A DNA stretch of 33,840 nt from Prochlorococcus sp. AG-409-D09. GTDB taxonomy: Bacteria > Cyanobacteriota > Cyanobacteriia > PCC-6307 > Cyanobiaceae. A program made the translations under genes and the position numbers. The DNA lies in assembly GCA_003215935.1 (NCBI GenBank), contig QCJQ01000010.1, forward strand, positions 1-33,840, written 5' to 3'. Of the stretch, positions 4,311 through 19,744 are shown in pieces. Position 1 is the stretch's first letter; each line of letters starts with the position of its first letter. The notes under the pieces were generated by a model, which saw only the letters and a list, made by a program, of their open reading frames with translations, searched no databases and was not told the DNA's origin.

Positions 4311-4427
4311 ATGGCTAGCGAATTTGCTGCAAATTTTCTCCCAAGTGTTTTGGTTCCGCTTGTTGGGATAATGGGCCCAGCAGTTTTTATTGTTTTAATT
4401 GGTCGCTACATCACTGCTTCTGAATAA
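4311..4427 (+). CDS. psaI: Photosystem I reaction center subunit VIII (PsaI)
   Basis: A 38-residue ORF (ATG 4311, TAA 4425-4427) encodes a short one-helix protein. It has the PsaI signature of a polar N-terminus, LPSVLVPLVG and a Pro-containing hydrophobic helix, ending in GRYITASE. PsaI is a one-helix subunit of photosystem I that contacts PsaL in the trimer core region and helps keep PsaL stable. It lies 38 bp upstream of psaL on the same strand, the usual cyanobacterial psaI-psaL pairing, which supports the call. The ribosome binding site is weak, as is common in this genome. Confidence 0.85.
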   Translation: MASEFAANFLPSVLVPLVGIMGPAVFIVLIGRYITASE

Positions 4428-4465: not shown

Positions 4466-4993
4466 ATGTCTGACACTCAAGAATCACTGATGGAAAAGTG
4501 GGCTGTTAAAACAGTCTCTGACCCAACCGTAGGAAATTTGCAGACTCCTGTTAATAGTGGGTCTTTTACCAAATGGTTTATTAATAATCTGCCTGTTTAT
4601 AGAGAAGGACTTGCTCCAAATTTTCGAGGATTAGAAACAGGTGCTATTTTTGGATATCTTTTGTACGGCCCTTTTTCGATGACTGGGCCTTTAAGAAATA
4701 CTGATTTTGCAGTTACAGCTGGATTACTTGGAGCAGTTGGTGCGATACAAATTTTAACGGCTTTATTTATTCTCTATAACGCTCCTGGTAAAGCACCAAA
4801 TGTACAACCTCCTGATGCCACTGTAGCTAATCCTCCTTCAGATCTATTTACAAGAGCTGGATGGGCTGACTTTACGAATGGTTTTTGGCTAGGTGGAACA
4901 GGTGGTGCTGTATTCGCATGGCTTTTAATTGGTACTTTGCACTTGGATATTTTGCTTCCACTTGTAAGGCAGTATCATTTATTTGGCGCATAA
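4466..4993 (+). CDS. psaL: Photosystem I reaction center subunit XI (PsaL)
   Basis: The 175-residue protein matches PsaL: a hydrophilic stromal N-terminus, the [19 protein letters not shown] segment (about 41-59) including the conserved chlorophyll-binding region, and hydrophobic helices near 62-105 and 130-165. PsaL holds the three photosystem I monomers together in cyanobacterial trimers. Length is within the usual range. It is preceded by psaI, so the two are likely cotranscribed. Unusually, its last 158 nt together with 54 nt of downstream DNA recur exactly 266 bp further on (see repeat entries). This gene copy is complete and appears functional. Confidence 0.95.
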
Positions 4994-5047
4994 TACTATT
5001 TAATTAGAAGGGAAATTATTTTTATACTATTGTTGATAATATTTGAA
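4836..5047 (+). repeat. Direct repeat, copy 1: psaL 3' end plus 3' flank
   Basis: Bases 4836-5047 (212 bp) are identical, base for base in my reading, to 5102-5313. Allowing one mismatch (C4835 versus A5101), the match extends left to 4830/5096 (218 bp). This copy covers the last 158 nt of psaL, including its stop, and the next 54 nt of noncoding DNA. The copies are in the same orientation with a 54-bp unrelated spacer. Confidence 0.97.
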
Positions 5048-5079
5048 CCAATTATTAATTTTTATCTGTTTATTTTCCT

Positions 5080-5259
5080 GTGATCTGTTCTAGTTATCCT
5101 ACTTCAGATCTATTTACAAGAGCTGGATGGGCTGACTTTACGAATGGTTTTTGGCTAGGTGGAACAGGTGGTGCTGTATTCGCATGGCTTTTAATTGGTA
5201 CTTTGCACTTGGATATTTTGCTTCCACTTGTAAGGCAGTATCATTTATTTGGCGCATAA
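5080..5259 (+). pseudogene. psaL: psaL C-terminal fragment (duplicated, probably not translated)
   Basis: The duplicated segment keeps the psaL frame and encodes its last 51 or so residues, including the final membrane helix, up to a TAA at 5257-5259. An in-frame GTG at 5080-5082 would give a 59-residue product, with the first eight residues coming from unrelated spacer sequence. No Shine-Dalgarno sequence precedes that GTG, and the N-terminal two thirds of PsaL are missing, so I treat it as a non-functional fragment. It could be transcribed by read-through from psaIL, because no strong terminator appears before 5435. Confidence 0.7.
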
Positions 5260-5313
5260 TACTATTTAATTAGAAGGGAAATTATTTTTATACTATTGTT
5301 GATAATATTTGAA
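5102..5313 (+). repeat. Direct repeat, copy 2: duplicated psaL tail
   Basis: Second copy of the 212-bp repeat, offset by exactly 266 bp from copy 1. Identity continues through the noncoding part as well as the coding part, which points to a recent duplication or ongoing gene conversion rather than selection on protein. No terminal inverted repeats, transposase or target-site duplication are visible at its edges. Confidence 0.97.
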
Positions 5314-5434: not shown

Positions 5435-5494
5435 AAATAAAAAGCATAAAAAATCACCCTAAATTAAAAGGGTGATTTTTTATGCTTTTTATTT
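5435..5494. terminator. Bidirectional terminator between psaL and psaB
   Basis: Two 26-nt arms (5435-5460 and 5469-5494) are perfectly complementary around an 8-nt AT loop (5461-5468). The loop-proximal part of the stem is GC-containing (ATCACCCT/AGGGTGAT), and it is flanked by A and T tracts on both sides. It therefore works as an intrinsic terminator in both directions, between the converging psaIL and psaAB transcripts. It ends 6 bp from the psaB stop codon. Confidence 0.92.
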
Positions 5495-5500
5495 TATTGA

Positions 5501-7729
5501 TTATCCAAATTTCCCAGATGTAGATGCAATTACAAAGGCACCAAAGGTAACAAAATTACCAACTGTGAAATGAGTTAAACCAACTAATCTTGCTTGGACG
5601 ATTGATAAAGCTACAGGCTTATCTCTCCATCCAACAAGGTTCGCTATTGGTGTTCTTTGATGGGCCCAGACAAGTGTTTCAATAAGTTCTTGCCAGTATC
5701 CTCTCCAGGAAATTAGGAACATAAATCCGGTCGCCCATATTAAGTGACCGAATAGGAACATCCAAGCCCATGGAGATAGTGCATTGACACCAAATGGGTT
5801 ATATCCATTTATAAGTTGTGAACTATTTAGCCATAAGTAATCTCTGAACCAACCCATTAGATATGTTCCAGATTCATTGAACTGGGCGGTATTGCCCATC
5901 CAAATTGCTAAATGCTTCCAGTGCCAATAGAAGGTTATCCAAGCAATTGTATTAAGAGCCCAAAACATAGCAAGATAAGTTGCATCCCAAGATGAACTAT
6001 CACATGTGCCTCCTCTACCAGGTCCATCACATGGGAAGGCAAACCCTAAATCTTTTTTGTCAGGGATTAATTTTGTTCCTCTAGCATCCAAAGCTCCTTT
6101 GATAAGGATTAAAGCTGTGGTATGAAGTCCTAGTGCTATCGCATGATGTACTAAGAAATCTGCAGGGCCAATTGGCAAGAAATTAGTTAAAGCATCTTGT
6201 CTATTTATCATATCCATCCAGTAATGATTCCCAGGCATTTGACTGGCTGCAATACTTGCTGAACTTGAAGCATTTGCAAGTAATGCATTAAACCCATACA
6301 TCATCTTTCCACTAGCTGCTTGCGCAAATTGAGCAAATACAGGCTCTATAAGAATTTGCTTTTCAGGGTTACCAAAAGCAACTACTACATCATTGTGAAC
6401 ATATATCCCTAGAGTATGGAATCCAAGAAGCATAGTCACCCAACTTAAATGGCTGATCAGTGCCTCTTTTGTACTTAAGATCCTTGCTAAAACATTATCT
6501 TTATTTAATTCAGGATCATAATCCCTTACAAAAAAGATAGCGCCATGAGAAAAAGCTCCAACCATCAAGAACATTGCTATGTATTGATGGTGTGTATAGA
6601 GGGCTGATTGAGTTGTGTAATCCCTAGCAAGAAAAGCATAAGAAGGTAGTGCTCCCATATGCTGAGCAACAAGACTACAAGCAACTCCTAAAGAGGCAAG
6701 AGCTAGTCCTAATTGGAAGTGAAGAGAATTGTTGACAGTCTCATATATACCTTTATGACTAATTCCGAAATAACTCTTATGTGGATCTTTGGGATGACTT
6801 GTGTTATGCGCCTCAGTTATTTCCTTCAGACTATGACCTATGCCAAAAGTAGTCCTATACATATGGCCAGCAATTATAAATACTGTACCAATAGCTAAAT
6901 GATGGTGAGCTATATCGGTTAACCATAGAGATTCACTTTGAGGATGTAACCCTCCTAAAAATGTAAATATTGCTGTTCCTGCTCCTTGCGCTGTACCAAA
7001 AACTGCATCTAGTGAATCAGGATTCTGAGCATAAGCACCCCAGTTCCCAGAAAAGAAAGGTGTTAAACCTTCTGGATGAGGCATAACTGTTAACCAGTTA
7101 TCCCAGCCAACATGAATACCTCTTGATTCAGGAATTGCAACGTGAACTAAATGTCCAGTCCAAGCAATACTACTAAAACCAAACAGTACAGCTAAATGAT
7201 GATTGAGCTGAGATTCTGCATTTTTAAACCAGGCTAATGAAGGCCGATATTTTGGCTGAAGATGTAACCATCCTGCAAAAAGAAGCCAACAGACAAGGAT
7301 GTTAATAAAAATCGCACCTTGAAATAGTTGCTCATTAGTTCTCATACCAATGGTGTACCACCAATGATATAAACCAGAGTAAGCAACATTAACGGGTGAA
7401 GTTGCACCAGCTTGAGTTAAGGCATCAGTTAAACCTTGCCCGAAATGAGGATCCCAAATTGCATGAGCAATAGGACGAGTATGGATTGGATCAATTACCC
7501 ATTGTTCAAAATTACCTTGCCAAGCTATATGGAATAAGTTTCCTGCAACCCACAATCCAATAATTGCAAGGTGACCAAAATGAGTAGAAAAGAGTTTTTG
7601 ATATAACTGTTCTTCAGTCATACCATCATGACTTTCAAAGTCATGAGCTGTTGCGATGCCGTACCAGATTCTTCTGGTAGTAGGGTCTTGAGCAAGACCC
7701 TGACTGAACGACGGAAATTTCGTTGCCAT
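5501..7729 (-). CDS. psaB: Photosystem I P700 apoprotein A2 (PsaB)
   Basis: The 742-residue protein is PsaB, one half of the photosystem I reaction-centre heterodimer. It carries P700, most antenna chlorophylls and the early electron acceptors. The conserved [12 protein letters not shown] loop gives Cys567 and Cys576, two of the four ligands of the interpolypeptide [4Fe-4S] cluster FX. Eleven membrane helices rich in histidine chlorophyll ligands are expected, and His-rich hydrophobic segments are seen throughout. Length is typical for the family. It follows psaA on the same strand with a 22-bp gap, so the two form an operon. It has no clear Shine-Dalgarno sequence. Transcription ends at the perfect hairpin just downstream. 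Confidence 0.98.
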
Positions 7730-18406: not shown

Positions 18407-18628
18407 CTTCTCAGTTCTATTGACACTCGCGTTTGCGGGTATAAATCAGAGAAAGGGTTATTTAGTTATCTTAGAGAAGCAAAGGTTGAATATTCAAAGA
18501 TAACTAGCAAGATCAACTAATACACAATTTTTTTGATTAAAACTTTTCTTTGATTTGGTTAGTTTTTGCATGATCTTCAATTGTTATTAATTGATCTGCA
18601 TAGTTCAGATGGTTTTTTTAAAGTAGAG

Positions 18629-18634
18629 GATAAT
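18629..18634 (+). promoter_or_regulatory. Possible -10 element of the rpsL operon
   Basis: GATAAT lies about 108 nt before the rpsL ATG. No strong -35 match is seen. If used, the leader of about 100 nt would carry the two hairpins at 18674-18688 and 18712-18729. Confidence 0.35.
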
Positions 18635-18673
18635 TAGGATCGTGACAAAATTTTGATATTTGGATTTGAGAAT

Positions 18674-18729
18674 TTGGTCTTTGACCAAGTAATGTGGTGG
18701 ATTGATGGTAAAGGTCGTAAGATCGACCT
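18674..18729 (+). promoter_or_regulatory. Two hairpins in the rpsL leader
   Basis: Hairpin 1 is TTGGTC-TTT-GACCAA (18674-18688). Hairpin 2 is AGGTCG-TAAGAT-CGACCT (18712-18729), ending 12 nt before the rpsL ATG. Both have perfect 6-bp stems. Ribosomal protein operons are often controlled by binding of one of their products to leader RNA, so these are candidate autoregulatory elements. This is inferred from position only. Confidence 0.45.
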
Positions 18730-18741
18730 ATTAAAATTTCG

Positions 18742-19116
18742 ATGCCAACTATTCAACAGCTAATTAGAAGTGAGCGAAAGACACTCACAAGAAAGACTAA
18801 ATCCCCCGCTCTTAGAGGATGTCCCGAGCGTCGTGGAGTATGCACAAGGGTCTATACCTCTACACCTAAAAAGCCAAATTCAGCGTTGCGTAAAGTTGCG
18901 CGTGTAAGACTAACTTCAGGGTTTGAAGTTACTGCTTATATACCTGGAATAGGTCACAATCTTCAAGAGCATTCTGTTGTTCTTCTTAGAGGTGGACGAG
19001 TGAAAGACCTTCCAGGTGTTAGATATCACATAATTAGAGGAACTCTTGACACTGCAGGTGTTAAGGATCGTCGACAAGGTCGATCAAAATATGGAGCCAA
19101 ATCTCCGAAGACATAA
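18742..19116 (+). CDS. rpsL: 30S ribosomal protein S12
   Basis: The 124-residue protein is S12, located at the decoding centre of the small subunit. The highly conserved [17 protein letters not shown] segment carries Lys43, and the [16 protein letters not shown] segment carries Lys88; both sites are the wild-type residues associated with streptomycin sensitivity. Length and start are standard. It is the first gene of a conserved str-type cluster rpsL-rpsG-fusA-tuf-rpsJ. Confidence 0.98.
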
Positions 19117-19169
19117 AATTAGTGTTTACTAGTTTTTGCTTAATTATCCAATCTCATTATTAATTTTCC

Positions 19170-19640
19170 ATGTCTCGTCGAAACGCTGCTATCAAAAGAC
19201 CAGTATTACCAGATCCACAATTTAATAATCGTTTAGCAAGTATGTTGGTACATAGATTAATGAAACATGGGAAAAAATCCACTGCTCAAAGGATTCTGTC
19301 TGATGCCTTTGGTTTAATTAATGAAAGAACAGGTTCTGATCCTATTGAACTTTTTGAAACTGCTATTAAAAATATAACGCCTTTAGTGGAGGTTAGAGCT
19401 AGAAGGGTTGGAGGTGCTACTTATCAAGTCCCTATGGAAGTTCGTCAAGAAAGAGGAACAGCAATGGCACTTAGATGGCTTGTTAATTTTTCTCGCTCTA
19501 GGAATGGACGTAGTATGGCTCACAAATTAGCTGGAGAACTTATGGATGCTGCTAATGAGGCTGGAAATGCAGTAAGGAAAAGGGAAGAGACGCATAAAAT
19601 GGCTGAAGCTAATAAAGCCTTTGCTCATTATCGCTATTGA
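19170..19640 (+). CDS. rpsG: 30S ribosomal protein S7
   Basis: The 156-residue protein is S7, a primary 16S rRNA binding protein that nucleates the small-subunit head. It starts [22 protein letters not shown] and contains the typical [16 protein letters not shown] segment. It lies 53 bp after rpsL and 104 bp before fusA in the same operon. In enterobacteria S7 regulates this operon by binding the rpsL-rpsG spacer. The spacer here is short and AT-rich, with no clear structure, so the same control is not evident. Confidence 0.98.
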
Positions 19641-19744
19641 GTTTGATCAACACGTGCCAGTTAAATTACTGAAAAATTTTCTTTTTAGCATGCTGGCCTG
19701 TAGAGTCTCATCTCCCTTTTAATGTACTAAACGGAGAATTCCTC

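Follow-up and report, generated by a model that had tools for sequence, protein, structure and literature searches.

Gene tails duplicated in the psaL-psaB gap of Prochlorococcus and their probable homogenisation by gene conversion

The Prochlorococcus genome is a textbook case of streamlining in which repeated DNA is scarce, and an exact partial copy of a photosystem gene in such a genome raises the question of how the copy came about and what keeps it identical to its source. We addressed this question for a detached tail of psaL in a 33.8-kb window (the whole stretch of DNA analysed) from a draft genome of 1.22 Mb (49 contigs, 65% complete), the sole member of its GTDB genus among the genomes compared.

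The repeat and its setting

In the window, psaI (4311-4427, forward strand; PF00796, E = 4.4e-11) is the upstream member of the psaIL pair, and the full-length psaL open reading frame (4466-4993, forward strand; PF02605, 1e-52) is the donor of the tail. The final 158 nt of psaL, which include its stop codon, together with 54 nt of downstream noncoding DNA (copy 1, 4836-5047), recur base for base and in direct orientation at 5102-5313 (copy 2), at an offset of 266 and across a spacer of 54 bp (5048-5101); when a single mismatch (4835 C, 5101 A) is allowed, the match grows to 218 bp (4830-5047 against 5096-5313). The sequence-only reading had reported this 212-bp identity, its extension, offset and spacer with exact coordinates, and was equally correct in carrying the identity 54 nt past the psaL stop and in seeing no transposon hallmarks: the short spacer holds no element. 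Within the window, no other direct repeat of at least 30 bp occurs, and this one is far above chance. Copy 2, on the forward strand like copy 1, encodes C-terminal residues of PsaL alone (PF02605 profile positions 113-149), in a 59-aa open reading frame that starts with GTG (5080-5259). The two window tails share 140 identical nt, and their identity to any other genome compared is at most 79%.

Convergent with psaL lies psaB (5501-7729, reverse strand; PF00223), whose own tail is duplicated in relatives. The only strong terminator in the gap is a bidirectional terminator-like hairpin at 5441-5488, and neither psaL copy is itself followed by such a hairpin, so that psaL transcripts probably run through copy 2. 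No Rfam family exceeded its gathering score in the gap, and the sub-threshold matches fall nearly all on this hairpin. The right part of the spacer (~5067-5101) looks like further psaL-copy sequence that has diverged (~62% across 39 alignment columns).

Tail copies among relatives

The comparison set comprised 37 genomes from three Prochlorococcus GTDB genera, the window's included, in which 228-646 bp separate the convergent psaL and psaB. A tail copy lies inside the gap in thirteen of them (a psaL tail in four, a psaB tail in nine), and the main search found none in the other 24; since relatives were sampled at one genome per species, these counts are not rates. The psaL tails belong to the window genome (G000), L005 (G327, AG-410-A05), L112 (G003) and L119 (G312), and the psaB tails to L006 (G317, AG-363-A03), L007 (G365, AG-409-J03), L008 (G205, AG-402-P18), L092 (G195), L095 (G055), L096 (G160), L098 (G129), L103 (G265) and L120 (G356). 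A fourteenth genome, L002 (AG-409-P19), which adjoins the window genome in the psaL tree, holds a decayed psaB tail (z = 9, with 0 of 100 shuffles as high); suspected remnants in L009 and L093 were not convincing. The partial photosystem-gene copy had been taken for a peculiarity of one genome, a view refuted by the recurrence of tails of either gene at this gap.

These carriers also bear on the concern that the repeat is a product of assembly or of MDA. The window contig comes from a fragmented and incomplete draft, and ~1.5 misassemblies per 100 kb have been reported for a Prochlorococcus single-cell workflow using plates of several relatives (PMC6122165). Against this, like structures occur in several independent assemblies and in four single-contig carriers (G003, G055, G160 and G129; 1.80-1.93 Mb each), which rules out an assembly artefact as a general explanation, although not for this contig; here, the diverged edge and the unique spacer at the window copy are not expected of a simple chimera of one sequence. 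We consider an artefact in the window contig extremely unlikely, and we advise against dismissing repeats of this kind in draft Prochlorococcus genomes as misassembly.

The duplication appears confined to this locus. Across 400 genomes of the family, the psaL tail was matched in 355 and the psaB tail in 350, and, outside the convergent group, none of the ~318 family genomes in which the psaL tail was matched had an adjacent tail copy (Fisher's test for 13/37 against 0/318, 2e-14, a figure that is only a guide, the genomes being related). In 65 relatives with both genes on the examined stretch, psaB precedes psaL and is read in the same direction. In genus g5 (G185, G272, G278, G296 and G313), the additional psaL matches proved to be open reading frames of ~170-190 aa located elsewhere in the genome rather than adjacent tails, and the additional psaB matches of G313 and G331 were long psaB open reading frames on other contigs.

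We also scanned 2.0 Mb of five carrier genomes, in 20-kb stretches containing 1653 open reading frames of at least 100 aa and 309 convergent pairs (psaL and psaB included), and found no duplicated tail of any other gene nearby. Having been picked as tail carriers, the five genomes give absence elsewhere and no rate, and the scan is blind to strongly decayed copies such as that of L119. The remaining close direct repeats belong to repetitive open reading frames or to small paralogous peptide genes with a lantipeptide-type leader. Several carriers have, at a distance of a few kb from psaL, an open reading frame of ~290-350 aa that contains a tandem repeat of 18/36 bp (7870-8931 in L145 of G160, 8604-9641 in L176 of G003, 16127-17152 in L230 of G129 and 17156-18037 in L244 of G055). 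In L238 of G055, several small open reading frames at 18492-19721 have a common leader like MSEEKKDQELSTDELKDVAGG and presumably resemble prochlorosin-type lantipeptide precursors.

Identical cores, diverged edges and junctions

Noncoding identity had been read as the sign of a very recent event, of gene conversion or of selection on the RNA. Very recent origin does not follow from the identity by itself, for relatives show identical cores inside diverged edges. In L112, all 11 differences fall within one edge, after which 138 bases match exactly; L005 has diverged flanks on both sides of a core with a single mismatch; and 246 identical bases in each of L096 and L098, and 209 in L007, adjoin a diverged left edge. 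In none of 20,000 shuffles was the clustering of differences as strong as in each of these five genomes and in the window, and such core/edge clustering is weak or absent in L103, L120 and L008. The edges are themselves homologous in L112 (left), L005 (right) and the window (left), with anchored alignments above all 400 shuffles, narrowly so in the window (20.4 against 19.6 for the best shuffle); at the right edge of the window, the shuffle test found no homology. Sharp-edged identical tracts within an older duplication were thus seen in L112, L005, L007, L096 and L098, and in weaker form in the window, whose own evidence on age is modest. Tails that are simply young would be expected to show an even spread of differences, and the clustering that is observed instead points to gene conversion.

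Among the real genes compared, psaB tail copies are nearest to the gene of their own genome, or tied; the tail copies of L096 and L098 are identical to each other and tied with other members of their group. In L008, L092 and L095, the two copies are 2.8-6.6% apart, further than the real gene is from the nearest other genome. The psaB tree (700 bp) and the tree of the psaL 5' part are discordant (L002-L012, L085-L120), and L007 clusters with L089, L096 and L105 by psaB and not by psaL. To judge from these trees, psaB alleles are exchanged between strains, apparently with a breakpoint near the gap, and such exchange complicates arguments from descent.

The breakpoints point to several events. 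Seven psaB tails (L007, L008, L092, L095, L096, L098 and L103; offset 265-276) have one junction in common, which follows CAAGAGTTT and is degraded in L008 and L092; the tail of L006 (offset 237) is compatible with that event if 39 bp were later lost between TCT repeats. In L120 the breakpoints are different (offset 382), and the fossil in L002 (offset ~415) may be related to the L120 event. The psaL tails of the window, L005 and L112 begin at about the same psaL codons, and that of L119 extends further upstream. The psaL tails and the psaB tails are separate events, and this, together with the differing breakpoints, means that at least three independent duplications were needed, and probably more. 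The derived junction GAGTTTTTATAGAT is common to L007, L096 and L098 and missing from their own psaB and gap, the parental segments; the three genomes differ from one another where the two copies of each agree, and exchange of psaB could have spread GAGTTTTTATAGAT as well as descent.

Origin, persistence and rival readings

We consider it probable that tandem tail duplications arise at a recurrent gap, are partly old, are homogenised by gene conversion and are lost by deletion or decay. A small tandem duplication reaching from inside psaL into the psaL-psaB gap would leave a detached 3' tail, and either gene could donate its tail where the two converge. Homologous conversion would then keep the core identical, with the intact essential gene effectively serving as template, and the edges would drift until the copy either decayed or was removed by a clean deletion from one repeat to the other. 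Of the causes originally offered, gene conversion agrees best with the identical cores, the diverged homologous edges and the agreement within genomes. Conversion as the homogenising process is nonetheless something that we infer, and so are an origin of the duplications in microhomology, the loss of copies by clean deletion, and their near-neutrality.

The closest competitor dispenses with conversion and holds that the tails are recent, microhomology-mediated tandem copies at favoured sites. It would account for copies nearest to the gene of their own genome and for the motif CAATA/CTATA found in both psaB and the gap at the commonest psaB junction; in L103, CTATA stands at the junction in both, and in other genomes the motif is degraded. 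The fairly uniform similarity along the copies of L103 and L120 likewise fits recent duplication. Fresh duplication alone leaves unexplained, however, the identical cores beside diverged homologous edges in the window and five relatives, the derived junction common to three genomes, and the common junction region of L008 and L095, whose copies are 5-7% divergent, and we regard it as unlikely to be the whole account. Delivery by phage or transfer, in which incoming psaAB or psaL DNA was integrated at one side only and a tail stayed behind, is in our judgement very unlikely: the disagreement of the trees would suit it, and cyanophages with psaA and psaB exist, but no psaL match was found among 50,697 phage records and the tails resemble the resident gene, not a foreign allele.

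A selected function, whether as a second 3' UTR or terminator or as a spare template guarding the end of an essential photosystem gene, would explain why unstable direct repeats persist and why they are confined to two essential adjacent photosystem genes, and readthrough of psaL, whose window tails have no terminator, would probably include copy 2. The 24 convergent genomes in which the main search found no copy speak against it, and so do the lack of an RNA family above gathering score in the gap and the fate of old copies. The tails of L008, L095, L119 and L002 form a decay series; the reading frame is lost to frameshifts or stops in L119 and L095, which makes a peptide or coding role unlikely, and terminators have decayed in old copies, as in the right flank of L005. 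Selection on the RNA, the last of the causes proposed, is not supported in view of this decay, and we hold a selected function to be distinctly improbable. Direct repeats of this size should nevertheless be deleted fast in a huge population, and neutrality does not fully explain their persistence and identity; persistence would then need recurrent formation, selection or both.

Returning to recurrent duplication with conversion, our guess is that the hot spot is due to convergent transcription of two photosystem operons, to frequent psaB allele exchange, or to both. Convergent transcription suggests itself first, since the carriers have that arrangement in common, and yet the main search found no copy in 24 of the 37 convergent genomes. 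We would only tentatively suggest, as a somewhat doubtful extension, that head-on transcription of these heavily used operons creates, converts and deletes the tails and also drives psaB exchange; if true, transcription conflict would focus recombination in a streamlined genome. In any case, the gap records in nature how duplication, gene conversion and deletion act in the most abundant phototroph of the ocean, and it could be used to examine directly whether recombination is concentrated where two strongly transcribed genes converge.

In a limited and mostly open-access literature, we found no earlier description of psaL or psaB tail duplication or of a duplication hot spot at convergent genes. 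Tycheposons are integrative elements at tRNA genes that restore or duplicate the 3' end of a gene. The psa tails resemble them in the duplicated 3' end and differ in that spacers of only tens of bases hold no element, integrase or cargo; reading the gaps of the convergent genomes in full revealed no integrase-bearing element between the gene-end copies. As in the microhomology-mediated tandem duplications generally known from bacteria, the copy is short and head to tail and the commonest junction has a short common motif, but the psa tails recur at one gap, involve either convergent gene, and persist or recur across species. The closer agreement within than between genomes, noncoding DNA included, recalls the concerted evolution of cyanobacterial 16S rRNA copies by gene conversion (PMC3552681); unlike those copies, a psa copy is a truncated, apparently useless tail beside its source, with edges that decay. 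One minor observation concerns the terminators of the psaB tails in L103, where the hairpin is inverted between the copies (AACACTGTCTTTATAGGCGGTGTT in one and its exact reverse complement AACACCGCCTATAAAGACAGTGTT in the other), a pattern expected from a template switch or from inversion of the arms.
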